From: Actinomycetota bacterium | Lineage (GTDB): Bacteria; Actinomycetota; Actinomycetes; Nanopelagicales; Nanopelagicaceae | Assembly (NCBI GenBank): GCA_014377015.1 | Contig: JACMQL010000046.1 | Location: 62,001 to 126,000, forward strand | Reading direction: 5' to 3' | Length of the DNA stretch: 64,000 nt | In this document: positions 26,397 through 49,676 of the stretch, piece by piece | Position numbering within the stretch: position 1 is the first letter of the stretch | Layout of the letters: every line of letters starts with the position of its first letter | The notes under the pieces: model-generated | What the model saw: the letters and a program-made list of their open reading frames with translations, nothing else | The model's database searches: none | Told to the model about the DNA's origin: nothing | Position numbers and translations under genes: made by a program

Positions 26397-26417
26397 ATCC
26401 GAGAGAGTGGAGTTGAC

Positions 26418-28364: not shown

Positions 28365-28371
28365 TTGAGGT

Positions 28372-29286: not shown

Positions 29287-29301
29287 GAAAGCCCTTTCGC
29301 C

Positions 29302-31725: not shown

Positions 31726-31742
31726 AATTTTTTTCCAATCTA

Positions 31743-31771
31743 TTGACCCTCAGCGTGCAAAATGTTAGCGT
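31743..31771 (+). promoter_or_regulatory. Candidate ridA-operon promoter TTGACC-N17-TAGCGT
   Basis: TTGACC (31743-31748) and TAGCGT (31766-31771) are 17 bases apart upstream of ridA. The -10 box is weak. A perfect palindrome follows at once. Confidence 0.45.
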
Positions 31772-31785
31772 AAAACCTAGGTTTT
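31772..31785. promoter_or_regulatory. Perfect palindrome AAAACCTAGGTTTT (candidate operator)
   Basis: A 14-base perfect inverted repeat in the divergent creatininase/ridA region, immediately after a candidate -10 box. It differs from the LacI-type sites, so a different regulator, perhaps one encoded elsewhere, may bind. Confidence 0.6.
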
Positions 31786-31821
31786 TTGACTGTTGTCATA
31801 AATATAAAGGAGATTTCGCCC

Positions 31822-32214: not shown

Positions 32215-32987
32215 GCCACATAAACGGCGGGCACTCCACCATAATCATCACGGGAGGCGGTAGCGGTTTAGGACTAGCCTCAGGTCGTCGGTTATTGACG
32301 GACTGGCCGAACGTACAAATTGTGTCAGCAGATATCCGTCCCGGTGAAATTGAATCATTACAGTCAGATTTTGGAAAAGATCGAGTCTTGTATGTAGAGG
32401 CCAACGTTGCGCATGTTGGTGCCGCCGCTAAGGTAGTCGGGCAGACCATAGCTTGGGCGGGCAGTCTTTCTGGATTGGTCAATTGCGCGGGTAACAGCAC
32501 AAACCACGCGAGCATTGATCTCACCCCTGAACAGTGGCGGGAAGTTCTCGATTGTCATCTCGATGGTCATTTCTATATGTGCCAAGCATTTGCGCGTTAC
32601 GTTATCGATGCGAATGCAAGTGGAGCGATCGTAAATTTCTCGTCGCTGGCGCATGCATTTGGTTGGCCGCGTCGACTTCCGTATTCCGTAGCGAAGGCCG
32701 GAATTGATGCGTTAACTCGCACTCTGGCCGTCGAATGGGCTGAATTCGGATTACGGGTCAATGCAATCGCCCCGGGGTACATCAACACGCCACTGGTCGT
32801 TAAAGCAACCGAGAATGGGTACTTGGATCCAACGATTGTGGATATGCATGCGATGGGACGTTTCGGCGACCCTAACGAGATCGCAACTGGCGTGAAGTTC
32901 CTTCTCTCCGATGATGCGAGCTTCATAACTGGCGAGATACTGACAATAGATGGCGGCTTCTCTGCCAAGAGAATTCCTTGGAAATGA
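32211..32987 (+). CDS. Short-chain dehydrogenase/reductase (SDR 3)
   Basis: 258-aa classical SDR with TGGGSGLG cofactor motif, NCAG, catalytic NFSSLA and YSVAKAG (YxxxK), and ending LTIDGGFSAKR. More similar to SDR 4 (34143) than to SDR 1/2. It overlaps ridA (ATGA) and enolase copy D (ATGA), so ridA, SDR 3, enolase D and likely SDR 4 form an operon. The substrate is unknown, likely a hydroxy or sugar acid. Confidence 0.87.
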   Translation: MSHINGGHSTIIITGGGSGLGLASGRRLLTDWPNVQIVSADIRPGEIESLQSDFGKDRVLYVEANVAHVGAAAKVVGQTIAWAGSLSGLVNCAGNSTNHASIDLTPEQWREVLDCHLDGHFYMCQAFARYVIDANASGAIVNFSSLAHAFGWPRRLPYSVAKAGIDALTRTLAVEWAEFGLRVNAIAPGYINTPLVVKATENGYLDPTIVDMHAMGRFGDPNEIATGVKFLLSDDASFITGEILTIDGGFSAKRIPWK

Positions 32988-34105
32988 TATCTAGGGTGGA
33001 TTCAATCAAGATCACCGCGATAGTCGGTCGACGTGTAACGCTCACTCTGCCCCAGCCCGTCGAACTCGGCAGTTACGTCATCCGCGCCCGCAGTTTTTGT
33101 ATCGCAACCGTCACGCTCGAAGACGGAACTGTTGGCTCGGCATTCGCACTTGATCGTGGTGCCCCAGTTGCTGAAGCGATCAATACTTTGATTGCTAAGC
33201 CTTACCAGGAGTTATTCAAAGGTGATCCATTGGCAACTTGGGATGTGTTATTGCGACAAGCGAGTGCAGCGTTGAGTTCTGGAGCAGCCCTGCGAGGCTT
33301 TTCTTTAGTTGACCTGGCTACACATGATGCAATCGCACGGCGTGAAAAACGTACCGTGGCGGAGCGTTTCAATCGTCCGATGAAGAAGTTGGCGAAGTGG
33401 GCAGTTATCGGGTATCCGCCCTCGCGCGGACCCGAAGAGATTGCCTGGGAAGTAAAAGCCGCGGTGGAGGCAGGAGCCGTCGGCGTGAAACTTCCTGTTG
33501 GAAAATCTCCTGAATTGACGCGCGAGAGAATCATCGCGGCACTTGACACGAGACTTTGTCCTGTGGCAACTGATTTAGCATGGTCATGTCGGACACCGTC
33601 GGATGCAATCAAGATTGTCGGCGGGCTGGATCTTGCTTGGGTAGAAGACCCCTTTATCCCCGGAAGTTTGCGCGAACTTCGCAATTTACGGTCTCTTCTT
33701 AATGTGCCACTTGCCAGCGGTGATGATGAGGCTCATCTCTATCATCCGCAAGTTTTTATTGAGACAGAGGCCGTGGACATATTGCGTATGGATGCGACAT
33801 GTCAAGGTGGACTTTCGCGAATGCTCCAGTTGGATGACTACTTAGTCGACTCGGGCCTTTCACTTTCGTGGCACGTTTATGATGCGTGGCATTCGCAAAT
33901 CGCGTCAATAATGCAAACGCCTACCTTTTCGATCGAATATTCAGCCCCCGGAGCAAGCGTGGACCCATTGGCAGAGTTGATTTTCAGTCGCAAGAAGGAC
34001 CTTGAGGCAACTGATAATCACGGCTGGCAGTTCATTCTCCCTGAACTTGCGGATGTTTCGATGGCCCTGGATGGTGGAACTCGATGGATTCCATTACCAA
34101 ATTAG
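32984..34105 (+). CDS. Enolase-superfamily protein, mandelate racemase subgroup (copy D)
   Basis: 373 aa. Barrel motifs are AGAVGVKLPVGKS (base Lys), VATDLAWS (metal Asp), WVEDPF (metal Glu), ASGDDE (third metal ligand) and SWHVYDAWH (probable catalytic His). The KxP context instead of KxK and a VEDP ligand set it apart from copies A-C, and it may act as a racemase or dehydratase on a different acid. ATG 32984 overlaps the SDR 3 stop (ATGA) and is preferred over TTG 32978. It is followed 37 bases later by SDR 4. Confidence 0.82.
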   Translation: MISRVDSIKITAIVGRRVTLTLPQPVELGSYVIRARSFCIATVTLEDGTVGSAFALDRGAPVAEAINTLIAKPYQELFKGDPLATWDVLLRQASAALSSGAALRGFSLVDLATHDAIARREKRTVAERFNRPMKKLAKWAVIGYPPSRGPEEIAWEVKAAVEAGAVGVKLPVGKSPELTRERIIAALDTRLCPVATDLAWSCRTPSDAIKIVGGLDLAWVEDPFIPGSLRELRNLRSLLNVPLASGDDEAHLYHPQVFIETEAVDILRMDATCQGGLSRMLQLDDYLVDSGLSLSWHVYDAWHSQIASIMQTPTFSIEYSAPGASVDPLAELIFSRKKDLEATDNHGWQFILPELADVSMALDGGTRWIPLPN

Positions 34106-34142
34106 TTTCATTTACACTCATTGACGTAACGATTGGAGAACT

Positions 34143-34904
34143 ATGACGAGCTCACATCCAGTTGTACTTGTAACAGGTGGCGCGCGGGGGATTGGATTTG
34201 CGTGTTGTCAGGTTTTCTTTGAAGCTGGGTTCAATGTCGTTGTGACAGACATGGATGTCGAACTCGCCCAAAGTTCTGCCACCGACATAGATCCAATCGG
34301 GGAGCGCACCTTTGCACTTAAGATGGATGTTTCCGCAACCGAATCGGTGGACTCGGGAATGCGTGCGGCTGCCAAACATTTCGGGCGACTGGATGTTCTT
34401 GTGAATAATGCTGGCAATTTCTTGCAAGCCCCAACGGCCACCTACACCGATGCGGACTGGGATCTTGTTACGGGAGTTCATCTGGACGGTGCGTTTCGCT
34501 GCTCACGTGCGGCGTATCCATTTTTGAAAGAGTCAGCACAAAGTGCCATTGTTTCAATCTCCTCCATCGCCGCACGAATTGGGCTTCCCGGAAGACTTTC
34601 GTATTCTGTTTCAAAGTCGGGAATTGAGGCATTATCCCGAGTATTGGCTGTTGAGTGGGCGATGGACGGAATCAGAGTAAATTCGGTCGCACCGGGTTTT
34701 ACGCACACTCGAAGTTACGACGACATGGTGCGAAAGGGTATTTCCACCGGCGAAAAATTGATCGCCGCCGTTCCGATGAAACGTCTGGCAGATCCGAGGG
34801 AGATAGCTTCTGTCGTGCATTTTCTAGCATCACCTGCTGCTTCGTACGTAACTGGCCAAACCGTTGTAGTCGACGGCGGAGCGACAGTAGATATCAGGAT
34901 CTAG
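34143..34904 (+). CDS. Short-chain dehydrogenase/reductase (SDR 4)
   Basis: 253-aa classical SDR with [22 protein letters not shown] and YSVSKSG (YxxxK), and the ending [20 protein letters not shown] precedes the ATG at good spacing. It resembles 3-oxoacyl-ACP reductase-like sugar dehydrogenases. It ends the ridA operon and converges on the DppF-like ATPase gene with a 14-base gap. Confidence 0.88.
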
Positions 34905-34918: not shown

Positions 34919-35719
34919 TTACGATGCGTGTTTCTGATTTCTAACTGCCGCACCAAGGGCGCCAGGAATTGAAGCAAGAAGTTCTTGAGTGTAAGCCTGT
35001 TGCGGATGATTGAAGATCTCCTCAGTGTCGCCTGATTCTACGAAGACACCATCTTTCATCACGTAAACGCGCTTAGTGAGGTAGCGGATTACGCCGAGGT
35101 CATGAGATACCAGAACAATGGCTAGCCCCTGATGAAGTAACCCTCTGAATAAATTTAGCAATTGCGCTTGTGCACTTTGATCGATGGCAGAAGTGGGCTC
35201 ATCCGCCAAGAGGATCGAGGGGTTAGCCGATAGCGCACGCGCGACACTCACTCTTTGGCGCTGCCCTCCCGAAAGTTGGCGGGGCTTTTTGACGGCATCG
35301 AGTTGGGCGATGCCCATCTGTCTCAGTAATTCAAGAGCTTTCACGTCAGCTTCCGACTTGCTGCATTTGTTGTGGATTCGCACCGCTTCAGAAACCGCGC
35401 TGAGTGCAGTTAGTTGCGGATTCAAACTTGCGTACGGATCTTGAAACACCATCTGCACTTGGCGGCGAGCCTCGCCTGTATACGACCTATGGCCCTTGTA
35501 GAGCGGCTCGCCGTTGAAATACACCTGACCCGAGGTAGGTGTCTGAAGTCCGGCGAGCACGCGAGCGAGAGTTGATTTTCCGCTTCCGGACTCGCCGACG
35601 ATTCCGAGCGGTTCTCCAGCGGCCAAGGTAAGGGAAACATTCTTAACTGCCTCAACTTTGTGAGAACCAGTGCCAAACGTTACGCATATATCTCTTGCCT
35701 CAATAATATTTGTGCTCAC
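34919..35719 (-). CDS. Oligopeptide/dipeptide-type ABC transporter ATPase (DppF/OppF-like)
   Basis: 266-aa ATPase energising import. It has Walker A GESGSGKS, VFQDPYASLNP (the Q-loop pattern of OppF/DppF), signature LSGGQRQRV, Walker B ILLADEPTSAID and a switch His in LVSHDLGVI. It lacks the long C-terminal Cys-containing oligopeptide domain found in OppD-type ATPases. The start is GTG. It is the last gene of the minus-strand transporter operon, 2 bases after the DppD-like gene. Confidence 0.93.
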   Translation of the reverse strand: MSTNIIEARDICVTFGTGSHKVEAVKNVSLTLAAGEPLGIVGESGSGKSTLARVLAGLQTPTSGQVYFNGEPLYKGHRSYTGEARRQVQMVFQDPYASLNPQLTALSAVSEAVRIHNKCSKSEADVKALELLRQMGIAQLDAVKKPRQLSGGQRQRVSVARALSANPSILLADEPTSAIDQSAQAQLLNLFRGLLHQGLAIVLVSHDLGVIRYLTKRVYVMKDGVFVESGDTEEIFNHPQQAYTQELLASIPGALGAAVRNQKHAS

Positions 35720-35721
35720 TT

Positions 35722-36708
35722 TTAACCTTTCAACTTATCGCGATGAAGGCAAGCACTTTGATGCGAACCTCTCTCACCAAAGAGCGGTGGATGACTGCCG
35801 ACCTTGCAATCTTCTTCCTTGAAGGTGCACCGTTCGACAAAGCGGCAGCCAGGATTCCACTCACCAACTGAGGGAGCGTTTCCCAAAATAGTTACTAGTT
35901 CACTTCCCGGAACCGCAATATCTATACGAGACTGGTTGAGCGCCAAGGTGTAGGGATGCTTTGGATTAACCATCTCAGTCACCGAACCAACTTCTACTGT
36001 CGCACCCGCATGCATAACAACAACGCGATCGCATACGTCGTCGATAAGTGCAAGATCATGCGAAATAAGGATGATAGAAGTGCCGAAATCCGCGCGAATC
36101 TCTTGTAAAAGTTGCATGATCTGCGATTGGACGGTTACATCTAATCCCGTCGTGGGCTCGTCCGCGATTAACAACTTAGGGTTGCTGGCAAGAGCGCAGG
36201 CAATCATCACTCGTTGGCGCATTCCGCCAGAGAGTTGATTTGGATACTGCTTCATGACGGTATCAACGCGACGAATCTTTACTAGATCGAGCAGTCTCCT
36301 GGATTGCTCCGCGATAGTTCCTGGAGCCTCGCTTCGGCGTAGGGCTTCCGCTAGTTGCTGTTGGGTCGTTAAAACTGGATTAGGACCAGCAAGGGCACTT
36401 TGCGGAACGTAACCAATTGATTTGCCGCGCAGTTTCTTCCAATTCGTTTCGGATATTTGGGCGAGATCTTGGCCACCGAAGAGCACTTGTCCTCCGAGCA
36501 CCTTGGCTCCTCTACGTTCAAGAGTTCCGATGATGCTGCGGCACACCATGGTTTTGCCCGAGCCAGACTCGCCGACGATTCCTACCATTTCGCCTGATCT
36601 GACATCGAAATTGGCGTTGTCGACGATGATCAACGTTTCGCGCCGCGGGTGCGGGATTCCGATTTTGAGGTCGATTACCTGTAAAAGCGTCTCGTTTTGC
36701 TCACTCAT
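35722..36708 (-). CDS. Oligopeptide/dipeptide-type ABC transporter ATPase (DppD/OppD-like)
   Basis: 328-aa ATPase with GESGSGKT (Walker A), YVPQSALAGPNPVLT (Q-loop region), LSGGMRQRVMIACAL, Walker B LLIADEPTTGLD and ISHDLALI. The C-terminal oligopeptide-transporter domain has PGCRFVERC, EEDCK and a final Cys, which in homologues binds an iron-sulfur cluster. It pairs with the DppF-like subunit as a heterodimer. It overlaps the DppC-like gene by 4 bases. Confidence 0.94.
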   Translation of the reverse strand: MSEQNETLLQVIDLKIGIPHPRRETLIIVDNANFDVRSGEMVGIVGESGSGKTMVCRSIIGTLERRGAKVLGGQVLFGGQDLAQISETNWKKLRGKSIGYVPQSALAGPNPVLTTQQQLAEALRRSEAPGTIAEQSRRLLDLVKIRRVDTVMKQYPNQLSGGMRQRVMIACALASNPKLLIADEPTTGLDVTVQSQIMQLLQEIRADFGTSIILISHDLALIDDVCDRVVVMHAGATVEVGSVTEMVNPKHPYTLALNQSRIDIAVPGSELVTILGNAPSVGEWNPGCRFVERCTFKEEDCKVGSHPPLFGERGSHQSACLHRDKLKG

Positions 36709-37556
36709 TTTGAATTAGTCTCCCGAAGCCGGCGTTGAAGTCCCTCAGCAATAAATGCCACCGTGATACCTGCCCAGCACAATGCTAGGCCAGGAAAAAT
36801 CGTCGGCCACCAAGCAATCTGGAAAATTTGATTTCCATCACGAATCATTGCCCCCCACTCCGCTTGCGGTGGCGGAGCACCTAAACCGAGAAAGGAAAGT
36901 GCGGCGACAGCGATGATGACGATGATGAAGTCGCTCAAAGCATATGCACGAGTTTCCGAAGACACGTTGGGAATAATGTGCTTAAAAAGAATGCGCGCTT
37001 TTGAATAACCGAGAGTACGAGCAGCTTCGACGTAGCCTTGGTGGTTCACGACAACAGCACGAGTTCGTGCAATACGTGCGTAACGAGCCCAGTTTACTAA
37101 TGAGAGGGCAAAGATGATGCTCGTGATTCCTGGACCTATGAAAGCGATTAGCGCGATCACGAAAATAAGAAATGGAAATGCATTGATGCCATCGATAAGG
37201 GAGCCAACCACCGCGTTGATTTTCTTATTTCGTGAAATTCCCAAAAGGGTTCCGATAATGGTTCCGACTATTAACGGAATAGAGACCCCAATTAAGGCTG
37301 TGCCGAGGTCAATGAAGACTGCATCAAAAACGCGAGTAAAGACGTCCCGACCCAAGACATCAGTACCAAAGAGATAGTCTCTGCTTGGCGGAGCCATTGG
37401 CGGCAACCCTGGTTGATTTGGATCGTATTTGCTGATGACGGGGACAATGAGACCTGCAAGTACAAGTGCACCGAACATTGCGAAACCGGTATACAGACCG
37501 AATGTGCCTTCCCGAACTTGTCTGCGGGGCTCACCGTTCTTCTTTAGTTTCGTCAT
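36705..37556 (-). CDS. ABC transporter permease (DppC/OppC-like)
   Basis: 283-aa inner-membrane permease with about six hydrophobic segments and the DppC signature DYLFGTDVLGRDVFTRV. It also has the EAA-type loop EAARTLGYSKARILFKHIIPN that contacts the ATPases. It overlaps both neighbouring transporter genes by 4 bases, so translation is coupled. Confidence 0.94.
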   Translation of the reverse strand: MTKLKKNGEPRRQVREGTFGLYTGFAMFGALVLAGLIVPVISKYDPNQPGLPPMAPPSRDYLFGTDVLGRDVFTRVFDAVFIDLGTALIGVSIPLIVGTIIGTLLGISRNKKINAVVGSLIDGINAFPFLIFVIALIAFIGPGITSIIFALSLVNWARYARIARTRAVVVNHQGYVEAARTLGYSKARILFKHIIPNVSSETRAYALSDFIIVIIAVAALSFLGLGAPPPQAEWGAMIRDGNQIFQIAWWPTIFPGLALCWAGITVAFIAEGLQRRLRETNSK

Positions 37557-38563
37557 GAGAGAGTCACCCGGCGATCTAGTAAATATCCGAGCAGATCGCC
37601 GATGAAACTGAAGAATACGACGATTATTCCGAATATAAGCACCACGCCTTGTACGACGGGGTAGTCCTTGGTGTTAACGGCAGTGATAAGTTCGCGTCCA
37701 ATGCCGGGCAGCGAGAAGATCGTTTCCATGATCACCGTGCCGCCAATCAGTACTCCGACCATATAACTTAATAAAACAACGGTAGGCGCCAGTGATGGTC
37801 GCAGTAAGTAAGACCAGTAGAAGCGAATCTTGCTGACTCCTCTAATCACGCCGGTCTCCACGAATTCCTCGTCTAATGTGTCCATCAAGGAACTGTGCAG
37901 AACGCGAGAAAGTACCGGGACAAGTGAACCGCAGTTGACCAAGGCGGGTAGCCAGAGATATCTCAAATTGCCGGGGAAAGCGCCTTCATATCCTGCCGAT
38001 GGTGCCCAATTAAGTTTGATACCGAAATACAGCAAGCCAACCAGTGCAAGAAAAAATCCCGGTAAGGCGAGCGAAATTGAAGTTGAAGCTCTAAAAAAAT
38101 ATGTGACTAATTGGTTCTTGCTCAGTGCTACGGCAAGGGCGATTGGGATGGCCATAATGACGCCGAGTAAAATTGAAAGGGCGATCACCATAAGCGTGAC
38201 AGGCAGGTGAGTTCCGACGATGTCGGTAACAGTGCGACCCGAGTAAAAAGATTTTCCGAGATCTCCTTGAAAAATCCCCGTGATGAAGTTATAGAACTGT
38301 TGAAAGATACTTGTATCGAGTCCAAGCTCGTGACGCATCTGCTTAACCGAAGCCTCCGTTGCCTCGGCCCCAAGTGCGATTTGAACAGGGTCGCCAGGGC
38401 TCAGTCTTATCATCAAAAAGGCAATGACACTGACCCAAAAGCCGACGCTAAGTGAACGCAGGATGCGACCATAGAGCAGTCTGCGTAATGCGAGTCTATT
38501 TTTATCACGCGGCTCTTCGACAGCGACATCCGCCAGCGGGAAACTTTCGTTGATATTCGACAT
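37553..38563 (-). CDS. ABC transporter permease (DppB/OppB-like)
   Basis: 336-aa permease with the hallmark early MIRLSPGDPVQIALGAEA segment and an EAA-like loop near GVSKIRFYWSYLLRPSL. Six transmembrane segments are visible, ending in DLLGYLLDRRVTLS. The cytoplasmic N-terminal extension of about 40 residues is a little longer than usual. It is separated from the binding-protein gene by a 118-base region with a strong stem-loop. Confidence 0.94.
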   Translation of the reverse strand: MSNINESFPLADVAVEEPRDKNRLALRRLLYGRILRSLSVGFWVSVIAFLMIRLSPGDPVQIALGAEATEASVKQMRHELGLDTSIFQQFYNFITGIFQGDLGKSFYSGRTVTDIVGTHLPVTLMVIALSILLGVIMAIPIALAVALSKNQLVTYFFRASTSISLALPGFFLALVGLLYFGIKLNWAPSAGYEGAFPGNLRYLWLPALVNCGSLVPVLSRVLHSSLMDTLDEEFVETGVIRGVSKIRFYWSYLLRPSLAPTVVLLSYMVGVLIGGTVIMETIFSLPGIGRELITAVNTKDYPVVQGVVLIFGIIVVFFSFIGDLLGYLLDRRVTLS

Positions 38564-38619
38564 TACTTCCTTCTCTTGCTGAACTAAATATTCATAAGTA
38601 AGCGAATTTTGAAAAACGT

Positions 38620-38663
38620 AATGATTGGCGCGGGGTCACTTTCGCAACCCCACGCCAATCATT
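38620..38663 (-). terminator. 17-bp stem-loop between binding protein and permease genes (attenuator or mRNA-stabilising hairpin)
   Basis: AATGATTGGCGCGGGGT (38620-38636) pairs with ACCCCACGCCAATCATT (38647-38663) around a 10-base loop. The single mismatch becomes a G-U pair only in minus-strand RNA, the direction of the operon. It is followed on that strand by ACGTTTTTC. The position, after the highly needed binding-protein gene, suggests partial termination or protection of the upstream mRNA. Confidence 0.85.
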
Positions 38664-38681
38664 CTCATTACATTTCTACTT

Positions 38682-40256
38682 TTACTTCAGCGCAGGAGTC
38701 TGCTGAACGTAGTAGGTGTCATTACCCTTAACGTTTTGGAAAACATTCTGAGGAAGACGAGTTGCTCCATAAACAGAGCGTTGTCCAAGCGGGATATGTG
38801 CTGATTCATCCCAGATTGCCTTTTCAACTTGTGCAATCAAAAGACGCTTGCCAGAAGTTGGTGTTGCGTCGATCTGGTTGAGCAACGCGTCATTGGACTT
38901 CGATCCAGCCCAAACAGTCCACGCACCAGTTCCACCGTAATATGTGCGAAGAATCAGGGTTGGGATCTGACCGGTTGCACCCGAGAACTGAACTTGGAAG
39001 TCACCGGAAGATTGAGCTGCTGATCCAACTGCATCAGCTTGTGGAATCACAGTTGCACTGATTCCGATCTTCTTCCAGTCAGATGCGATCATTGATGCTG
39101 CATCTCCCCATCCTGGGCGGTTGAATACCGTCAGGTTTATTGGGAAGCCCGCTGCATAGCCTGCATCTGCCAACAGCGCCTTAGCCTTAGCAATATCCTG
39201 CTTGTTTCCGCCAGGTCTAGCGCAGGATCCAAGCGGACTTGATGCCCAAGTGATTGAACAAGAGGGCTTCACATCGCCAAAGAAAGCAACTTTGCCCATT
39301 GCCGCACGGTCAATTGCAAACGACATTGCTTGTCGAACGCGAACATCGCGCCAAGGCTTGCCTTCTGTCATTGAGCGCAAATTGAAGTCGAGCGTGAACG
39401 TTCCCTGGAGCTGTACTGGAATTCCACGGAACAGAGCCTTGCTCTTGAGTTGACCACGTGCGATAGCGGCAGGCATGTCGAATGCATAATCGATTATGCC
39501 TTGGCTTAGTGCGATGACACGGGTAACAGGATCTGGTACTGCGAGGAACTTAATTTCTTTGACAACTGGCTTAGCCCAATAATTTGGGTTAACGATGACA
39601 TTGAAATCATCATCTCCAGGAGTCCAAGACTTAATTTCATAAGGTCCTGCGCTTAGTGGCTTGATCCAGTACTTGTCATTTCCAACGACCTTGCTTCTTG
39701 GATTTATGAAGAAGTAAATGCTGGAAAGTGCGTACGGCAATTCATCGAAGCGGGTCTTCAAAGTGATAACAACTGTTGAGTTGTCAGGAGCCGTCATGTC
39801 CTTGACCGCTGAGAACACGGGTGGTGGAGCATTTTTGAGAAGTTCCCACATAAAGACCGCGTCGTCTGCTGTAACCGGAGTTACACCGTCTGAATACTTC
39901 AGGCCTGTCTTCAATTTGAGAGTCCAAGTGAGGCCGTCTGCGGACATTGAGTCTGACGCGACCAAATCGGGCTTAGGCGTTCCGTCAGCAGCAACTCGAT
40001 ATAAAGCTCCCTGAACGAGGAATTTAGTAATGTAATTCTGGTTTGTTGTGCGAACCGAAGACGTTGGGTCCAAGGTAACCACTTTGTTGACGAGCGCAAC
40101 CGTGATGAGATCACATGAAGCAGACGTCGTTGGCGTGCGGAGAGTACAAGCCGATCCCGTTGCACCGTTAGCTATAGGAGCTCCAATGAAGAGAGTTCCA
40201 GCTAGGGACGCAACTGTGATCGGGGCAATCCACGATCGCAATTTGCGAAGATTCAT
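38682..40256 (-). CDS. Extracellular solute-binding protein, family 5 (DppA/OppA-like)
   Basis: 524-aa secreted binding protein of SBP family 5. It has an N-terminal signal peptide with basic MNLRKLRS, a hydrophobic core and an ANGA-type cleavage site near residue 32; I see no lipobox Cys at the expected place, so it may not be a lipoprotein. The mature part has family markers such as LTWTLKLKTGLKYSDGVTPV, AGPYEIKSW and VRQAMSFAIDRAAM. The ligand is not predictable; family 5 proteins bind peptides, nickel, and also oligosaccharides. AGGAAGT precedes the ATG. It has its own good promoter. Confidence 0.93.
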   Translation of the reverse strand: MNLRKLRSWIAPITVASLAGTLFIGAPIANGATGSACTLRTPTTSASCDLITVALVNKVVTLDPTSSVRTTNQNYITKFLVQGALYRVAADGTPKPDLVASDSMSADGLTWTLKLKTGLKYSDGVTPVTADDAVFMWELLKNAPPPVFSAVKDMTAPDNSTVVITLKTRFDELPYALSSIYFFINPRSKVVGNDKYWIKPLSAGPYEIKSWTPGDDDFNVIVNPNYWAKPVVKEIKFLAVPDPVTRVIALSQGIIDYAFDMPAAIARGQLKSKALFRGIPVQLQGTFTLDFNLRSMTEGKPWRDVRVRQAMSFAIDRAAMGKVAFFGDVKPSCSITWASSPLGSCARPGGNKQDIAKAKALLADAGYAAGFPINLTVFNRPGWGDAASMIASDWKKIGISATVIPQADAVGSAAQSSGDFQVQFSGATGQIPTLILRTYYGGTGAWTVWAGSKSNDALLNQIDATPTSGKRLLIAQVEKAIWDESAHIPLGQRSVYGATRLPQNVFQNVKGNDTYYVQQTPALK

Positions 40257-40364: not shown

Positions 40365-40549
40365 CGTTTTTTTGTGTAACAATCAGGTATCAATTTACTG
40401 GAATCCAGAAATCGCAAGGTCGCTGAATGGATTGACAGATTTGTTTGGGAACGCCGAACACCTGCGCCACGATTGAGCGTGTTTGGGGAAAGTTAAGTGA
40501 ATTGAGCAGAACGAGTCCAGCGGTAGCGCGGGCGCATGGTGACGAGAAG

Positions 40550-41794
40550 GTGGGTTCGAAGTTGACGCGTTTCTCATTTACGGCACTCCGCAATCGTAAT
40601 TATCGAAACTTCTTTGTCGGTACGGCAATTTCGAATATCGGCACGTGGGTTCACCGCATTGGACAAGACTGGTTAGTACTTGAGTTGACCAACAGCGGTA
40701 AAGCACTGGGCATCGTCGTGAGTGCCCAATTTCTACCTGGGTTCTTCTTTAGTCTTTTTGGTGGAACTCTCGCCGACAAACTCGATCGACGAAGAGCACT
40801 TGTCGCAATAAATTTATTTGGGTGCGCAATCGCACTCACGCTCGGAATTCTAGTGATAAATGATATGGCTAACGTGATAACGGTGACCGTCGCGGCTTTC
40901 TTGCTCGGCACTTGCACCGCAATTGATGGACCGATTCGGCAGAGCTACTACGTAATACTTGTCGGCGAGAATATTTTGCCGAATGCGTTGGCGCTCAATT
41001 CGCTGAATATCAATATCGGGCGGCTCATCGGTCCCGTACTTTCTGGAATGTTAATCGAACGATTTGATACAGGTCCTTCATTCATCATTAACTCATTTAG
41101 CTATTTAGTCGTAGCTGCCACAGTATTCATGATTCGCCCTTCGGAGTATCAACTCCCACCTACCGTGAATAATCTGGAGAAAACTCCGAAAATTCGCGAT
41201 GGAATTGTTCACGTATATTCATCAAAAGAACTTTTTCTTTCAATTATTTGCGTGTCATTTCTTGCGATGTGGGGACAAGACATGCAAATCACATCCGCCA
41301 TGATGGCTAAAGAGACTTTCGAGCGCGGTGCAGCATCTTTCGGGTTACTCGGAACTGCTGTGGCACTTGGCGCAATTGCGGGTGCCTTAGTCATTTCTCG
41401 AAAGACGTCCCTACCTACAGTTCGCGATGTTGGAATCAAATCTCTTCTCATGGCCGGCGCTTGGTTTCTTGCCTCGCTTGCGCCGAACTTCACCTTATTC
41501 GCCGGTGCTCTCTTTATTTGCGGCTACTGCGCTATGGGAGTGAATATTTCGGGAAACGGAACTCTTCGGACTTATACCTCGCCACAATTCTATGGACGTG
41601 CTTGGGGTATCTACATATTTATGTGGCAGTCTCTAATCGCACTTGGCGCTCCGGTGCTCGGATGGATTAACGAAACATACTCGCCACGAATTGCGGTTGC
41701 CTTCGGTGCAACGATGGCGCTCCTAATGTCTTTATTTATTTTGCGAAAGTATTCGGCTCTGCATAACGATTTAGTACTGAAGGACTCGCATTGA
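40550..41794 (+). CDS. MFS transporter, MFS_3 (exporter-like) family, copy 1
   Basis: Twelve-TM-type membrane transporter of about 414 aa. It opens with FSFTALRNRNYRNFFVGTAI, followed by the TM1-TM2 segment SNIGTWVHRIGQDWLVLELT and the motif A-like loop GGTLADKLDRRRAL. These are features of the transmembrane secretion effector family (PF05977; EntS-like). I chose GTG 40550 (GGTGA upstream) because it fits copy 2's N terminus; TTG 40445, 40502 and 40562 are possible. It is divergent from the binding-protein gene, and its end overlaps the next ORF. It may export a by-product or import a substrate. Confidence 0.85.
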   Translation: MGSKLTRFSFTALRNRNYRNFFVGTAISNIGTWVHRIGQDWLVLELTNSGKALGIVVSAQFLPGFFFSLFGGTLADKLDRRRALVAINLFGCAIALTLGILVINDMANVITVTVAAFLLGTCTAIDGPIRQSYYVILVGENILPNALALNSLNINIGRLIGPVLSGMLIERFDTGPSFIINSFSYLVVAATVFMIRPSEYQLPPTVNNLEKTPKIRDGIVHVYSSKELFLSIICVSFLAMWGQDMQITSAMMAKETFERGAASFGLLGTAVALGAIAGALVISRKTSLPTVRDVGIKSLLMAGAWFLASLAPNFTLFAGALFICGYCAMGVNISGNGTLRTYTSPQFYGRAWGIYIFMWQSLIALGAPVLGWINETYSPRIAVAFGATMALLMSLFILRKYSALHNDLVLKDSH

Positions 41795-41856
41795 CAACAG
41801 TGAGTCGCAGTGCTTGGGTAAGAAAAGTATTTTGGCGCATGAAGGGTTACCTTAAG

Positions 41857-43284
41857 ATGGCATCTATCGATACACCGAATGCTCAAATAGCACCCAACAA
41901 AAAAATCTGGCGCGAAAATTTGAGTTCTCTTCGACTTGGCATCGCGCAAGTTGACGTGACTCCGCCGGTTGGAATTGAGTCAGGAGTGTGGGGTGCCAGC
42001 AAGCATTCAAGGTCAGAGTCGGTACACCATGGATTGTTCGTCACTGCCCTTGCACAACAAGATATCCACGGAAAGATCAGCTACATCACGGGAGCGGATT
42101 TGTGCGTCCTCGGATGTGTTGAATGCGCAGAAAATCTACTCGTCAATATTTCTACCAAGTTAAACATCAATAAAGATGATCTATTATTTAGTTCAAGCCA
42201 TTCTCACTCAACGCCGCTTCCGTGCATTCACCGAGCGCACAAGGACGGTCACGAACTGGTTCCAGGTTTTATCGAGCAGTTGGTTGACGGGACCGTGAAA
42301 GCGTGCGAGGAAGCCTCGTTCAATATTCAGGATGTCAATGTCACCTGGGCGTACGGAAAATGCGATCTTGCGGTGAATCGAGACCTACCGTGCGGCGAGC
42401 ATGGCGGGACACATGAAGTTGTGGCTTTCAATCCTGCGATCCTCGCCGATGACACGCTCACAGTCGGACGAATTGCCGACAAAAATGGCGAGGTAGTCGG
42501 GACGATAGCCAATTACGCATGTCATCCCACGACGCTCGCTTGGGACAATCGCGCAATATCACCAGATTACATAGGGCAGGCCCGTGAGTTGGTTCAGAAG
42601 GAGACGGGCGCTCCCATGCTTTTCTTACAAGGCGCTTCCGGCGAGCTATCACCTCGCGATCAATACAGCGGAGAGACTTCATTGGCTGACAAAAATGGTC
42701 GTAATCTCGGTCACTCGATTCTGGCCACTCTTGCATCGATGCAATCTCCAGGTCATGAACTCAGGTGGGTAGGAATTGTTGAATCGGGAGCCCTCCTGGG
42801 GGAATGGCGTGAGTTTCCAACTGAGGGATCGAGTGCGGTCATAAAGACTCGTCTTGATGTGAAGGTGCGTGTCAAGGAACTGAAAAGTATTGATCAGCTC
42901 CGTCAAGAATGGGCGGGCATCGACTCGGATGCACTTGAGGAGAGAATTTCTCGTGCCAAACGTTTGCGCATCGGATATGAGTCAAAGCAGATTACGTCGC
43001 ATCCAGTTTGGATATGGCAACTGGGTGATGCGATTTTTGTTGCGCAGCCAGGTGAGGCTTACTCCTATCTACAGACTGAATTGCGCCGACGTAATCCAGA
43101 TCGCGTTATCTTCGTGATGAATCTGACGAATTATCCAGGGCTTTTTTACTTACCAATACGTAGCGCATATGTAGCTCCTGCTTATCAGGCCTGGCAAACA
43201 CTGCTTGCACCAGGCGCAATCGAAGAAGTTGTTGACGTGACAGATAAATTCATAAAGGAATCAATTGGAAAGAGAGATAACTAA
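41857..43284 (+). CDS. Neutral-ceramidase-like (PF04734) hydrolase, copy 2
   Basis: About 475 aa, cytoplasmic by lack of a signal peptide. It has the family start LGIAQVDVTPPVGIESGVWG and the zinc-site motifs SSSHSHS, NYACHPTTLAW, AQPGEAYS and a Tyr-containing NYPGLFYLP. It is the only copy here that retains Ser at the nucleophile position (GASGELSPRD, compared with GDVSPN in true ceramidases). I chose ATG 41857, which aligns with copy 3's MASPK beginning; the ORF track starts at TTG 41791. It heads a three-gene tandem of homologues and follows the MFS gene closely, suggesting one operon. Confidence 0.82.
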   Translation: MASIDTPNAQIAPNKKIWRENLSSLRLGIAQVDVTPPVGIESGVWGASKHSRSESVHHGLFVTALAQQDIHGKISYITGADLCVLGCVECAENLLVNISTKLNINKDDLLFSSSHSHSTPLPCIHRAHKDGHELVPGFIEQLVDGTVKACEEASFNIQDVNVTWAYGKCDLAVNRDLPCGEHGGTHEVVAFNPAILADDTLTVGRIADKNGEVVGTIANYACHPTTLAWDNRAISPDYIGQARELVQKETGAPMLFLQGASGELSPRDQYSGETSLADKNGRNLGHSILATLASMQSPGHELRWVGIVESGALLGEWREFPTEGSSAVIKTRLDVKVRVKELKSIDQLRQEWAGIDSDALEERISRAKRLRIGYESKQITSHPVWIWQLGDAIFVAQPGEAYSYLQTELRRRNPDRVIFVMNLTNYPGLFYLPIRSAYVAPAYQAWQTLLAPGAIEEVVDVTDKFIKESIGKRDN

Positions 43285-43286
43285 AA

Positions 43287-44690
43287 GTGGCATCCCCAAA
43301 GTCTGATCTTCGACCTGACAAAACGATCTGGGCACCACAAAGTGCCCGCCTTACGGCTGGTGTTGCGCAAAGGGTCATTGATCCGCCGATCGGAATTCGC
43401 TCAGCGAGTTGGGGCGCGGCAAAACTTCATGTTGTAACTGGAATTCATAATCACATCACCACTACCGCGATGGTGGTTCGCGGCGAGGATGGTCTGGACA
43501 ATTATCTGGTTACCGTCGACTGGGGTTGGTGGCAAGGAAAGTCCGATGACCTGGCGGTTCGTGGCGAAATTATTAGGTTGTTAGGAATTGAAGAAAATCA
43601 ACTCTTGCTGCACCTGACGCATACCCATGCGGGTCCTACAACTGCTTCCGACGCCGCGCACCTAGATGGCGGAGATTTAGTCGCTGGATACCACGCCACG
43701 GCCATTGAAAAAATCGTTGAAGCTTGCCGCGAAGCTACAAGTACCGCGACTGTGGTTGATATTACGTGGTCATATGGAAAATGCGACCTTGCGGTAAATC
43801 GCGATCTGCCGTGCGGGGTTGAGGATGTTCTTGCGTATAACCCCGATGTGATTGCAGATGACACGCTTACGGTGGGTCGAATCTGCGATTCGAACGGGAA
43901 AATTATCGGAACTGTAGTTAATTATGCCTGCCACCCGACTACCTTGGCGTGGCTCAACAGCAAAGCCTCTCCTGACTTTGTCGGCGAGGCACGCGTAATG
44001 GTAGAAGCAAAAACTGGCGCTCCCATGCTCTTTCTGCAAGGGGCATCAGGTGACCTTGCGCCTCGAGATGGATTCTCTGGTGACACGAAAGTGGCCGACA
44101 AGAATGGTCGTATTCTCGGATTCGCAACTTTGGCAGTGTTAGAAAATATGCTCCCGCCTGCCACGCGAATTCGATTTACGAACACCGTTGAATCCGGAGC
44201 CTTGCTTGGAGAATGGACTCAAGAAGCGTTTATTGCCGCAGGTAAAACGGATCGCGTGCGTTTGGATATTGGCGTTCCATTACAAGTTCTACCCAGCATC
44301 GATGAACTTAAAGAGAGATGGAAAGATATCGACGCCGGCGCACGTGATACGCGCATAAATAGAGCCATGAAGTTACGTGCTGGCTATGTAATTGACGGAG
44401 CGGCCACACATCCAGTGTGGATTTGGATGTGGGGTGACGCAGTAATTGTCGCCCAGCCTGGGGAGGCATATTCGCAATTTCAAACTGAATTACGCCATCT
44501 GCACCCTGAGCGCGTGATCTTTGTGTTGAACTGCACTAATGGTCCTGGTTACATGTACATACCAACGCCAGAGTCGTACGAGCGGTTGAGGTATCAGGCC
44601 TGGCAGACGCTCCTGGCTCCTGGCGCACTTGCGAAGATTATTGCGGAGACATCGGCTGCTATATCGAAACTTCCAAATCCATCACCGTAA
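43287..44690 (+). CDS. Neutral-ceramidase-like (PF04734) hydrolase, copy 3
   Basis: 467 aa, clearly paralogous to copy 2 (shared YGKCDLAVNRDLPCG, NYACHPTTLAW and YQAWQTLLAPGA). The zinc-site motifs HLTHTHAGP, NYACHPTTLAW, AQPGEAYS and YMYIPTPESY are intact. The nucleophile Ser is replaced by Ala (GASGDLAPRD). GTG 43287 starts 2 bases after copy 2's stop and it ends overlapping copy 4 (TAATG). It arose by tandem duplication. The substrate is unknown; an amide or ester of a small hydrophilic compound is more likely than ceramide. Confidence 0.83.
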   Translation: MASPKSDLRPDKTIWAPQSARLTAGVAQRVIDPPIGIRSASWGAAKLHVVTGIHNHITTTAMVVRGEDGLDNYLVTVDWGWWQGKSDDLAVRGEIIRLLGIEENQLLLHLTHTHAGPTTASDAAHLDGGDLVAGYHATAIEKIVEACREATSTATVVDITWSYGKCDLAVNRDLPCGVEDVLAYNPDVIADDTLTVGRICDSNGKIIGTVVNYACHPTTLAWLNSKASPDFVGEARVMVEAKTGAPMLFLQGASGDLAPRDGFSGDTKVADKNGRILGFATLAVLENMLPPATRIRFTNTVESGALLGEWTQEAFIAAGKTDRVRLDIGVPLQVLPSIDELKERWKDIDAGARDTRINRAMKLRAGYVIDGAATHPVWIWMWGDAVIVAQPGEAYSQFQTELRHLHPERVIFVLNCTNGPGYMYIPTPESYERLRYQAWQTLLAPGALAKIIAETSAAISKLPNPSP

Positions 44691-46078
44691 TGACAAGTGC
44701 GCGACCGAAAGTAGATCGAATCAAATCTTCACTTTCGCGCGTGCAGATGGGAATTGCGCAAGCCGATATAACGCCGCCCGTAGGAATATCGGCAAACCCC
44801 TGGGGTAAAAGCACAACCGCCCTTTCAACAGGCATTCATCGGCCTTTGGTTGCAGTTGCGGCGTGCATCCGCGCAACTCGGGATCTCTTTATCGTCACTC
44901 TCGATTTGGGCTGGATTGGTTGCTACGAGTGCGATGTTGTTAATTTTCGGGGCCGAGTCGCACGTGAACTTGAGATTAGCATTGACGATCTACTTGTGAA
45001 TTTGAGCCAAACACATAAGGGACCACCATTTTGCATTCATGAGGCGCTTCGTGAAGGCAGAGAACTTGTGCCCGATTGGATCGAGATTGTGATTACTTCT
45101 GTAATTAATATTTGCAGATTAGCGCGCGAATCAGTGGAATTGACTGATATAACTTGGCAATATGGAAAATGTGACCTAGGAACAGTGCGCGAACTTTCGA
45201 TTGATGGCATTGAGTATGTTGGTTATAACCCCGGACTGAGTCCAGATGATGTGCTTGTTGTGGGGAGAGCGACAATAGAGTCCGGTCGAACGGTTGCAAC
45301 TTTCGTAAACTATGGTTGTCATCCAACGAGCGTTGGCTGGGAAAGTTCCTTAGTGAGTCCGGATTACGTTGGCAGGGCGCGCGAAATAATCGAAAACGAA
45401 ACTGGCGCGCCAATGATTTTTCTTCTAGGAGCCTGCGGAAATGTTGCACCGCGCCTTCAATACTCTGGAGATGTCACCATTGCAGATAGAAACGGCGAGA
45501 TGCTGGGGTATGCCGTTATGGCAACAATTGCAAACATGATGCCCCCGGCATCGGATCTAGCCTTTGAGCAAACGATAATTTCTGGAGCTTTGTTAGCACG
45601 TTGGATACCTCAGGCAATTGTGCCGAATTCTTGCGTTAATACGACCAAAATTTTTGCAGTACTTAAGCACAAGAAATTGCATACAAGAGAAGAGATGGAG
45701 AGTGCTTGGGCTCCTGTGACTGCATCCGCAGAATTTCTTGACTTTCGAATTTTTAAGCAATTTGAAATGCGCAAGGATTATGTTCGGGAAGGGGGAGTGG
45801 TCCACCATCCGATTTGGATCTGGCAACTTGGGGATGCCATTTTTATTGCACATTGTGGCGAAGCTTATTTGGAGATGGCGAGAGAGTTGAGATTCAGAAA
45901 TCCCGAACGCATGATCCTTTGGTTGGACATGACCAATGGTCCGGGCTACATGTATGTACCAACCGCTGCTGCCTACGATAGGGACTCCTATCAATCCCAG
46001 CAGTCTCTACTGGCCAGGGGATCCTTTGAAGAAATGCTAGAAATTTTAGATCAAAGCATCAAGAATCGGCGAGTCTGA
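44690..46078 (+). CDS. Neutral-ceramidase-like (PF04734) protein, copy 4, altered metal site
   Basis: 462 aa, third of the tandem. It keeps IAQADITPPVGIS, NYGCHPTSVGW, a Glu in HCGEAYL and YMYVPTAAAY. But the first zinc-motif His is changed (LSQTHKGP instead of HTHxGP), and the nucleophile region is GACGNVAPR, with Ala at the Ser position. GE is preserved. It may have a modified or reduced activity, or act as a partner subunit. It converges on the DoeB-like pair with a 2-base gap. Confidence 0.8.
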   Translation: MTSARPKVDRIKSSLSRVQMGIAQADITPPVGISANPWGKSTTALSTGIHRPLVAVAACIRATRDLFIVTLDLGWIGCYECDVVNFRGRVARELEISIDDLLVNLSQTHKGPPFCIHEALREGRELVPDWIEIVITSVINICRLARESVELTDITWQYGKCDLGTVRELSIDGIEYVGYNPGLSPDDVLVVGRATIESGRTVATFVNYGCHPTSVGWESSLVSPDYVGRAREIIENETGAPMIFLLGACGNVAPRLQYSGDVTIADRNGEMLGYAVMATIANMMPPASDLAFEQTIISGALLARWIPQAIVPNSCVNTTKIFAVLKHKKLHTREEMESAWAPVTASAEFLDFRIFKQFEMRKDYVREGGVVHHPIWIWQLGDAIFIAHCGEAYLEMARELRFRNPERMILWLDMTNGPGYMYVPTAAAYDRDSYQSQQSLLARGSFEEMLEILDQSIKNRRV

Positions 46079-46080: not shown

Positions 46081-47115
46081 TTAAGCTGGAAAGTCATCCG
46101 GAGATGCGTAATCGGGTCCGAGTACCGCGACGACATCTCCGATATTGACTCTTGGAAATCCCCGCATGACACCGATCATTCCAAATTGTTGGGCCAATAT
46201 TTGCACGGCAGGAGTGTCAGGGTGATCCATATCGTGGATTCTGCCGATTAAATCGCCTTTCTCAACCCGATCCCCGCACCCTTTGACATTCTCATAGAGC
46301 CCGCCATGAGTCGCGTGATGATACGAATGTGATCCACGCATGTCGATGAAGATTGGAGGAGTTAATCCTTGCTCAACACGAGAGAGCGCCTGCCCCTTAA
46401 TGACTTTGAAATGTAGAAGGGCGTTTCGGAGTCCATCCGTAGCAATTTGCACTGTTTCAAAAGTAGATACACCTGCGCCGCCGAGTTCGGTTGTAACGAG
46501 ACCCTTTCCCATTCTTTCGACGAGTCCGGGAAGAAGAGTTGTGGGATCAGTTCCTGGTTGCTCGGGAAATATAAGGTGATGGGAGGTGTTAAAACTTGTC
46601 ATATCCTCGATCATCCGTTGGCGTTGTTTTAGATCGGATGACCAGACCATATGCGAACAAGGAACAAAGTAATGACCGCGTCCTCCGCTATGGAGTTCTA
46701 CGACTGCGTCTGCAATTGGAAATAAGTCATAGCTGAGGTAGTAAGCCAACTTTTTGTGAACGCCACCATTCTCATCTCCAGGAAAAATGCGATTGAAATT
46801 TGTACCATCGGGCCATAACCGCATTCCAAATTTTGATGCTGTTTGCGAAAGGCAGGGAATGATGATTACTCGGCCTTGCACCATGTCAGGAGAGAGCGAA
46901 TTCGCAAGATTTGCAGCAGCGAACTGACCTTCGTATTCATCGCCGTGATTGCCACCCAATACCAGGACCGTGGGCCCATTTCCATTACTTATGCTGATGA
47001 TGGGTACATGGAAGGTTGCCCATCCGCTGTTATTGGTGGAGTCGCCGATTTTTAGATAACCAGAATTCTTCCCGGACAGGTTAAGGTCAAATGAACACGA
47101 GACCGTATTGCTCAT
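46081..47115 (-). CDS. DoeB-like deacylase (AstE/AspA zinc carboxypeptidase fold), copy 1
   Basis: 344-aa predicted zinc-dependent N-acyl hydrolase. It has the motif VLGGNHGDEYEGQ (zinc His and Glu), RVIIIPCLSQTA, NFNRIFPG and the second zinc His in ELHSGG. The pattern SGWATFHVPIISISNGNGPT closely resembles N-alpha-acetyl-diaminobutanoate deacetylase DoeB (ectoine degradation), but no other ectoine genes are present. A C-terminal barrel-like domain follows. I chose ATG 47115, matching the paralogue's start and lying 2 bases after its stop. Probably cleaves an N-acyl amino compound. Confidence 0.82.
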   Translation of the reverse strand: MSNTVSCSFDLNLSGKNSGYLKIGDSTNNSGWATFHVPIISISNGNGPTVLVLGGNHGDEYEGQFAAANLANSLSPDMVQGRVIIIPCLSQTASKFGMRLWPDGTNFNRIFPGDENGGVHKKLAYYLSYDLFPIADAVVELHSGGRGHYFVPCSHMVWSSDLKQRQRMIEDMTSFNTSHHLIFPEQPGTDPTTLLPGLVERMGKGLVTTELGGAGVSTFETVQIATDGLRNALLHFKVIKGQALSRVEQGLTPPIFIDMRGSHSYHHATHGGLYENVKGCGDRVEKGDLIGRIHDMDHPDTPAVQILAQQFGMIGVMRGFPRVNIGDVVAVLGPDYASPDDFPA

Positions 47116-47117
47116 CG

Positions 47118-48161
47118 TTAACCCGCCACTTCTTCCATTTGTTTCAATGAAGTGAAACTCTTGCCCACGACACAAACTACGTCGCCCGTTGTAACAGGAG
47201 GGAATCCTCGAATTACGCTGATGACCCCCGAGATCGCTGCCGTGACGTTCGTCGGCGCGACATCAGGATGGTCAAAATCATGAATCTTCCCGACAACATC
47301 GCCCGCATTAACGTGACCTCCCAAGGGGACGCAATTTTCATAAATTCCGGCTTTAGTTGCTGAAACGAAGCCCGCGGGATCCCTAAAATCAATGATTTTT
47401 GCGGATTTTAGTCCTTCCTTGACTCGAGAATTCGACTCTGTCTTGAGTACGCCGAAATCTTGCAAAAAATTTCGCAGCCCATCACCAATGATTTTTATAG
47501 TTTCTGGAGTCGAGTATCCGCTTCCTCCGAATTCACCAGTTGAAACTGACTTTCCCTGGCGCTCTGCCTCTCGATTAAGCAAGGCATAAGGATTCGTGCT
47601 GGGTTGCTCACCGCCGATCATGTGGACGCTCGTATTCCATGCCAACATATTTTTTATCATCTTTACTCGTCGTGCTGGATCGGCAACCCAAACCATATTT
47701 GAGCTTGGGATGAAGTACATGCTGCGACCCCCGCTGTGCATATCAAGTACCCCGTCACAAATAGGGAAGAGGTCGTTGCTCATGAAGAAAGCAAGCTTTT
47801 GGTCTAACGAACCATTTTCAACTCCAGGGAAGACACGATTAAAATTTGCGCCATTGGGCCATAGCCGAGTCCCTGCGCGGGAGGCTTCTTGCGAAAGACA
47901 GGGAATGATGATGACTCGTCCTGTGACTTCTTCTGGTTGAAGTTCACGAGAGAGGGAAGATGCCGCGATTTGGCCCTCGTATTCATCGCCGTGATTTCCG
48001 GCTAGTACCAAGACGGTCGGGCCACTTCCATTCGTGATCATCACGATGGGAACCTGAAAGGTCGTCCATCCGCTGTTGTTGGTTGAATCACCTATTCGCA
48101 GATATCCAGTTTGTTTTCCCGTAGCGTTGAAGTCGAAAGAACAAGTAACAGTTCCGCTCAT
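47118..48161 (-). CDS. DoeB-like deacylase (AstE/AspA zinc carboxypeptidase fold), copy 2
   Basis: 347-aa paralogue of the downstream copy, aligning along its full length, with VLAGNHGDEYEGQ, NFNRVFPG and DMHSGG zinc motifs. Start ATG 48161 is supported by alignment with copy 1 and by a TAAAGT box exactly 6 bases upstream, a leaderless arrangement; GTG 48167 is the ORF-track start. It is divergent from PF04734 copy 5 and heads a two-gene operon. The tandem pair may have two related acyl substrates or form a heteromer. Confidence 0.82.
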   Translation of the reverse strand: MSGTVTCSFDFNATGKQTGYLRIGDSTNNSGWTTFQVPIVMITNGSGPTVLVLAGNHGDEYEGQIAASSLSRELQPEEVTGRVIIIPCLSQEASRAGTRLWPNGANFNRVFPGVENGSLDQKLAFFMSNDLFPICDGVLDMHSGGRSMYFIPSSNMVWVADPARRVKMIKNMLAWNTSVHMIGGEQPSTNPYALLNREAERQGKSVSTGEFGGSGYSTPETIKIIGDGLRNFLQDFGVLKTESNSRVKEGLKSAKIIDFRDPAGFVSATKAGIYENCVPLGGHVNAGDVVGKIHDFDHPDVAPTNVTAAISGVISVIRGFPPVTTGDVVCVVGKSFTSLKQMEEVAG

Positions 48162-48167
48162 TTTCAC

Positions 48168-48173
48168 ACTTTA
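48168..48173 (-). promoter_or_regulatory. Leaderless -10 box TAAAGT before DoeB-like copy 2
   Basis: On the minus strand TAAAGT is followed by 6 bases and the ATG. No -35 is evident. Confidence 0.5.
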
Positions 48174-48272
48174 GTCGTGCAAGATAATAAATGGAAGTAT
48201 CGGAAATCATCAGACGTTCCAGTCTGCTTTCCAGAATATGAACAGAGTCTGGCTCTTGATGATTTCACTTTG

Positions 48273-48278
48273 TATAAT
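48273..48278 (+). promoter_or_regulatory. Leaderless -10 box TATAAT before PF04734 copy 5
   Basis: Consensus TATAAT is followed by 6 bases and ATG 48285. This places the transcription start at the start codon. Confidence 0.65.
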
Positions 48279-48284
48279 CTGTTT

Positions 48285-49676
48285 ATGTCATCACTCGAAG
48301 TAACGCCATTCGAAGGTCAAGCACTCATCGGAATCATGAAGCGAGAGATCACTCCACCTTTTGGAATTTATGGTCGAGTGTGGGGAGCATCAAATCATGA
48401 CAAATCTGAAGGTTCACATAAACCGCTTTTCGTAACCGCGATGTCTATGCAAACCGAATCTGATGACATGCCTGCTTTGCTGGTTGCCATCGACGCCGGC
48501 TCCCTCGGAGATTTAGATGGCCGAGAGGGTGAACAACTGCGTGAATCGGTTAGGACGGCCTTGCAAATAGATGACGCTCATTTGATGATCGCCTGTTCTC
48601 ACACGCACGCATCTCCGTGGTTTGCTCGAAGTCGATCCGCATTGCCAGGTGGTGACCTAATAGAAAGATATTTAGAGGAAATTGCGACGGCAATTATCGA
48701 CGCTTGTAAAGAAGCACTGGCCCATCGTGTGACTTCAATTGTCACTTTCTCAGCGGGCAAATGCGCACTCGCCTCCAATAGAGACTTGATCGATCCCCAC
48801 AATCCAGATCGTTTTTTGACTGGATTTAATCCAGCAGTCGAAGCAGATGACACCCTAATGGTGGGACGAATTGTGCGAATTTCAGATGGCGAAACCATTG
48901 GAACGTTGGTGAACTATGCCTGCCATCCGACATCTCTCGGGTGGGGCAACAAGTTGATCTCTCCAGATTATGTGGGAGCCATGCGCGAGAAGATTGAAAG
49001 CGAAACTGGCGGGGTGCCTTGTCTTTTTCTGCAAGGGGCGTCTGGAGATTTAGGACCTGCTTATCAATACGTGGCAGAAACAGACATTGCTGATGCACAT
49101 GGAAAGCAACTGGCCTATTCGAGTTTAAGTGCGTTAACTGCCATGTATCCGGCCGGCAATAAATTTGCATTTATCAGATCCGTTGAATCTGGAGCACCGC
49201 TTGGATATTGGGAGCCCGTTCCTTACGAAGTGCCTAAAGAACTTTTAGTAAGTGCTGATCGAGTATCACTTCCCGCCAAAGTCTGGCCATCCGTAGCGGA
49301 GCTTGATTCTCAGATAGCGGTTACCGCAGACTCATTCGCAAAGGAGAGACTTTTCCGTAAGCGTTCTATTGCGAAGTTGATGTTAACGGGTGGCGAGTTG
49401 GGTCTGACCATTTATGGATGGCGACTGGGAAAGATTCTTTTTGTCGGCGTCCAATGTGAGGTTTATTCCATTTGGCAGCAAGATTTACGGGAGATGTTCC
49501 CGGATTATGCGATTGTTGCCATTACTTGCGTCGATTATGAGGCCATCGGTTATGTAGTTCCCGACGAATTACATGACTTGAATCTCTATCAAGCATGGCA
49601 ACCTCCATTTGATAAAGGTGTGATGGGCGCTCTCTTTGCAGGAAGTTGCCAGCAAATTAGGAAGATACTTTCTTAA
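48285..49676 (+). CDS. Neutral-ceramidase-like (PF04734) hydrolase, copy 5
   Basis: 463 aa when started at ATG 48285, which sits 6 bases after a consensus TATAAT; the ORF-track start at 48111 would run across the divergent promoter region. It has ITPPFGIYGRVWGASNHDKS, CSHTHASPW, NYACHPTSLGW and a Glu in GVQCEVYS, where copies 2 and 3 have PGE. The nucleophile Ser is Gly (GASGDLGP). It matches copies 2-4 more than copy 1. It lies between the DoeB-like pair (divergent) and the second MFS gene (25 bases downstream, same strand). Confidence 0.82.
   Translation: MSSLEVTPFEGQALIGIMKREITPPFGIYGRVWGASNHDKSEGSHKPLFVTAMSMQTESDDMPALLVAIDAGSLGDLDGREGEQLRESVRTALQIDDAHLMIACSHTHASPWFARSRSALPGGDLIERYLEEIATAIIDACKEALAHRVTSIVTFSAGKCALASNRDLIDPHNPDRFLTGFNPAVEADDTLMVGRIVRISDGETIGTLVNYACHPTSLGWGNKLISPDYVGAMREKIESETGGVPCLFLQGASGDLGPAYQYVAETDIADAHGKQLAYSSLSALTAMYPAGNKFAFIRSVESGAPLGYWEPVPYEVPKELLVSADRVSLPAKVWPSVAELDSQIAVTADSFAKERLFRKRSIAKLMLTGGELGLTIYGWRLGKILFVGVQCEVYSIWQQDLREMFPDYAIVAITCVDYEAIGYVVPDELHDLNLYQAWQPPFDKGVMGALFAGSCQQIRKILS

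Follow-up and report, generated by a model that had tools for sequence, protein, structure and literature searches.

Within the window, by which we mean the whole 64,000-nucleotide stretch of DNA that was analysed, several paralogues of the neutral ceramidase family PF04734 are clustered with transporters and deacylases (Table 1). Copies 2, 3 and 4 follow one another behind an MFS transporter, and the ATG of copy 4 shares one base with the TAA of copy 3. The locus is frequently ordered as Dpp-type importer, MFS transporter, copies 2-3-4, two DoeB-like deacylases, copy 5 and a second MFS transporter; the importer and the tandem DoeB-like deacylases accompany copies 2-4 in many relatives, and copy 4, consistently the last of the trio, lies directly 3' of copy 3 in each of the 17 genomes that carry it, with a junction of -4 to +8 bases in most. 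With this content, the locus may serve to take up N-acylated or peptide-like compounds and cleave them. A literature search found no paper on it, and we know of no function assigned to freshwater bacterial ceramidase-like gene clusters.

The source genome has at least six PF04734-like copies. Copy 1 is located at 29302-30741 of the window on the minus strand and the sixth on another contig (G000:C30:63338-64099, locus L032), and both have kept the first His of the zinc motif. Beside the importer, genes of the enolase-superfamily, SDR, creatininase, PTE and RidA types are densely packed at positions 24314-34904 of the window, and together with the importer they suggest a larger catabolic island.

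Table 1. Genes of the copy 4 locus and pocket positions of copy 4, in window coordinates.
Feature	Position	Strand	Remarks
Dpp/Opp-type ABC importer: binding protein, two permeases, two ATPases	34919-40256	-	Conserved divergent neighbour
MFS_3-type transporter	40445-41794	+	First in operon
Copy 2, PF04734 paralogue	41791-43284	+	Nearest relative of copy 4 in tree; listed TTG start probably too early
Copy 3, PF04734 paralogue	43287-44690	+	Motif intact; directly upstream of copy 4
Copy 4, PF04734-like protein, 462 aa	44690-46078	+	ATG start; without obvious signal peptide
Gln107 of copy 4, codon CAA	45008-45010	+	Replaces first zinc-ligand His; codon reading, orthologue alignment
His109 (catalytic-His equivalent, human His196) and Lys110	45014-45019	+	Invariant in 13-row alignment; codons read in 17 genomes
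Arg167 (human Arg257 equivalent)	45188-45190	+	Retained; alignments
His211 (second zinc-ligand His)	45320-45322	+	Retained; alignments, ceramidase profile comparison
Ala253 (GACGNVAPR), ceramidase Ser position	45446-45448	+	Variable across family
Glu391 (third zinc ligand)	45860-45862	+	Retained; alignments
Tyr422 (fourth zinc ligand)	45953-45955	+	Retained; alignments
Tyr434 (human Tyr591 equivalent)	45989-45991	+	Retained; alignments
Two tandem DoeB/AstE-like (M14-type) deacylases	46081-48167	-	Conserved neighbours
Copy 5, PF04734 paralogue	48111-49676	+	Motif intact

Copy 4 is a full-length homologue of PF04734 members and has the ceramidase fold. Over 430-460 aa it is 40-41% identical to copies 2 and 3 (E about 1e-110); its identity to copy 5 is 34%, and its profile matches the ceramidase structure 2zws at 1.6e-5. 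Against the PF04734 model it scores 12.0 bits, below the gathering cut-off of 32.1 that copies 2, 3 and 5 exceed, and the NCBIfam neutral ceramidase model NF041649 gave no match to copy 4 at an E of 0.01. A structure model built with 50 related sequences reached a pLDDT of 91.5 and a pTM of 0.92, superseding an earlier one from 13 sequences in which the pocket was poor (pLDDT 67). The strong Foldseek matches of this model in the PDB were 2zxc, 2zws and 4wgk (probability 1.00, TM 0.65-0.67 over the query), and the next match was an unrelated oxidoreductase (probability 0.69, TM 0.14). The departure from the family lies in the His/His/Glu/Tyr set of zinc ligands, of which copy 4 has Gln107 in the first place and the other three residues.

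This departure is visible in the motif itself, which reads LLVNLSQTHKGPPFCIH in copy 4 versus LLLHLTHTHAGPTT in the tandem copy 3; the corresponding motif is LLFSSSHSHSTPLP in copy 2 and LMIACSHTHASPW in copy 5, and NLSQTHKGP of copy 4 replaces the [ST]H[ST]H pattern of the paralogues. A profile of copy 4 orthologues aligns SQTH over THTH of the Pseudomonas aeruginosa and human neutral ceramidases. The zinc ligands of the human enzyme, which we take to be His194, His303, Glu540 and Tyr579, formed part of the basis for assigning the ligands of copy 4, and they are consistent with the aligned position of the second ligand His. A human neutral ceramidase construct comprises residues 99-780, with His196, Arg257, Tyr579 and Tyr591 as critical pocket residues (PMC6952831), and by this numbering the two His of the human motif are, in order, residues 194 and 196. 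Taken together, the alignment and the human numbering indicate that copy 4 has lost the first metal ligand and kept the catalytic His.

Orthologues of copy 4 were sought at the level of genus, family and order, and 17 of the 296 genomes examined at order level were found to carry one. An alignment-based scan of genome contigs yielded 15 loci, and a scan of the contigs with a single protein as query gave no match. No orthologue was found beyond the family in the class or phylum samples, where the closest class-level homologues have the His and most resemble copy 3, and tblastn against plasmids returned distant relatives only (23-30%). In public records the carriers appear as actinobacterial MAGs from lakes and groundwater, one of them under the name Candidatus Planktophila. 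Three of the loci (L071, L075 and L079) are found in public MAG records that go under Streptomyces griseus or Bifidobacterium breve, names that look wrong.

Position 107 is Gln in all 17 orthologues, which belong to one lineage of lake actinobacteria and represent one substitution rather than 17 independent events, in a sample consisting mostly of metagenome-assembled genomes of one family. The codon is CAA in some of these genomes and CAG in others, and no invariant run in the 13-sequence family alignment is longer than the one that contains NLSQTHK. The same position is His in each of the 57 divergent family members that could be aligned (a set with a few near-duplicate rows), full-length ceramidases included, and the first His is likewise kept by all orthologues of copies 2, 3 and 5 and by the class-level homologues. 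The earlier note on this DNA had read the motif as the loss of a His at the ligand position, and that reading is borne out as a stable property of copy 4.

In the phylogenetic tree, copy 4 forms a clade (100/100) whose sister is copy 2 (100/96); copy 3 branches outside this pair, and the homologues from other actinobacteria, which bear the His, lie further out; the tree program warned that long branches meet at the join of copies 2 and 4. Since the copy 4 clade is nested among His-bearing homologues, the Gln is derived, and we propose that a duplication in the copy 2 lineage gave rise to copy 4, in which the first metal-ligand His would subsequently have been fixed as Gln. The stem of copy 4 measures 0.92, and copy 4 is the fastest evolving of copies 2-4, with a mean identity of 0.66 versus 0.73-0.74. 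The longest stem and the fastest rate of the three are what a decaying duplicate, or a sequencing or assembly artefact, might produce, but such an origin is most improbable: the reading frame is intact in 16 of the 17 orthologues, the exception (G132) being cut by contig ends and split over two contigs; dN/dS is 0.05-0.09 for the orthologue pairs without saturation at synonymous sites, signifying purifying selection; and the identical residue recurs, with different synonymous codons, in independent assemblies from different sites. The selection and codon evidence rules out a pseudogene or an assembly error for practical purposes, and, as judged from these sequences, the Gln substitution is fixed and not noise.

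The remainder of the pocket is preserved, D72, H109, R167, H211, D225, E391, Y422 and Y434 all being kept in copy 4. Only eight positions show a fixed difference between copy 4 on the one hand and copies 2 and 3 and all outgroups on the other, namely H107Q, A209G, A216G, S249C, L336M, R356K, A357Q and N413D, and of these A209G, A216G, S249C and N413D lie close in sequence to conserved pocket residues. The Ser354 equivalent is lacking in copy 4, as it is in many paralogues; in copy 4 orthologues the position holds Ala or Gly, in those of copy 3 A, S or G, and across the family at large N, A, S, Q or L. The earlier note was right about the residue, which is Ala, but its reading as a second lost catalytic residue is not supported, a change from Ser to Ala at so freely varying a position being no sign of lost catalysis. 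A compensating His or Cys ligand in the loop that follows the motif (Cys115, His117) was also considered and rejected, as the same C-x-H is present in copy 2, which retains the His, and is not specific to copy 4.

From this pattern of residues we favour, with roughly even confidence, the reading that copy 4 is a working paralogue that has kept its metal site, with Gln taking the place of the lost ligand. What speaks most for retained chemistry is that all other catalytic residues are kept among orthologues no more than 57-69% identical to copy 4. What speaks most against it is that His is otherwise invariant at position 107, suggesting that a His there is required for ordinary catalysis; the fast evolution, the long stem, the fixed changes near pocket residues and the new Lys110 also count against it. 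With the remaining active-site residues invariant, the possibility raised earlier that copy 4 is non-catalytic appears less likely than an altered metal site.

Lys110 could speak for another reading. It is invariant in copy 4 orthologues and shares a loop with Gln107, which it follows by three residues, and no Lys was found at this position among the divergent homologues sampled. Conceivably, Lys110 and Gln107 give the pocket a positive charge that replaces the metal, making copy 4 a metal-free binding protein or an unusual hydrolase; we find this unlikely, however, as Glu391, His211 and Tyr422 would then stay invariant without other obvious role.

Genomes without copy 4 bear on whether it is needed by its neighbours. 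The closed genome G028 (a single contig rated 99% complete) has copies 2 and 3 and lacks copy 4; about 17 bases separate copy 3 from the deacylase (L065 8214-8232), no remnant of copy 4 is present between them, and the closest relatives of G028 in the tree carry copy 4. The absence is apparently a clean deletion. Copy 3 is the only strong match in three further genomes, all incomplete (G031, G044 and G074). In G132, which does carry copy 4, the trio is interrupted by a break or a chimeric join, and just the last codons of copy 2 remain upstream of copy 3. Immediately before copy 3 these codons run into a tRNA-like stretch (L064 16300-16470); ARAGORN found no complete tRNA at this junction, which is probably a chimeric contig join.

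Because G028 retains copies 2 and 3 without copy 4, the latter is dispensable to the two others in at least one lineage, and an obligate three-part complex is unlikely. Of the earlier proposal that co-translated copies 2-4 form a hetero-oligomer, the conserved operon is supported and an obligate complex is not; the conserved gene order supports a putative pathway common to the three copies. A looser association could nonetheless be envisaged, in which copy 4 is a metal-poor, substrate-binding pseudoenzyme complexed with copy 3 or copy 2 and acts as their activating or regulating partner. The disappearance of a ligand that is invariant elsewhere, the constant and mostly tight junction with copy 3, and the precedents of the Zn-lacking partner of BRCC36 (PMC5106787) and the trypanosome prozyme (PMC5201418) speak for such a role, which we consider possible yet on the whole doubtful, given that G028 has no trace of copy 4 beside its copies 2 and 3 and that orthologues show no change in the three other ligands or in the catalytic His, Arg and Tyr, residues that a pure scaffold need not keep.

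If, as we favour, the metal site is altered rather than abandoned, copy 4 would be a functional cytoplasmic paralogue of the neutral ceramidase (PF04734) fold, in which the metal is most likely held by Gln107, His211, Glu391 and Tyr422, with a changed affinity or metal choice, and in which an amide-type substrate would still be bound with His109, Arg167 and Tyr434. It would act beside copies 2 and 3, in a locus whose Dpp-type importer and DoeB-like deacylases may bring in N-acyl or peptide-like compounds and break them down. Tentatively, and with some reserve, we suggest that copy 4 could be the first ceramidase-fold protein with a conserved, active Gln/His/Glu/Tyr site, and that its metal or reaction may be unlike that of its operon partners. 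The ligand in question is invariant elsewhere in a large metalloenzyme superfamily; here it has been replaced once and the replacement then fixed, with the rest of the pocket kept, and copy 4 thus constitutes a natural experiment on whether the fold can run on a Gln ligand or has been turned into a binding or regulatory subunit.

Comparison with known systems places copy 4 nearest to the neutral ceramidases of P. aeruginosa (2zws/2zxc) and human (ASAH2, 4wgk), with which it has the fold in common by model comparison, together with the equivalents of His196, Arg257, Tyr579, Tyr591, the second His and the Glu ligand; whereas these enzymes comprise 640-690 aa and have the first ligand His and Ser354, copy 4 has about 460 aa, a Gln and no Ser354 equivalent. 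Copies 2, 3 and 5 share its locus and are of similar length but, unlike copy 4, keep the first His. In the pairing of KIAA0157, a paralogue lacking the Zn motif, with BRCC36 (PMC5106787) and in the trypanosome prozyme, a dead paralogue working beside an active enzyme (PMC5201418), a paralogue deficient in its catalytic site stands beside an active one; for copy 4 such a pairing would be putative, and one lineage, that of G028, manages without it. Human glyoxalase I (GLO1), though unrelated to copy 4 in fold and reaction and hence a chemical precedent only, has a Zn site formed by Gln33, Glu99, His126 and Glu172, in which a Gln serves as a catalytic Zn ligand (PMC8849047).
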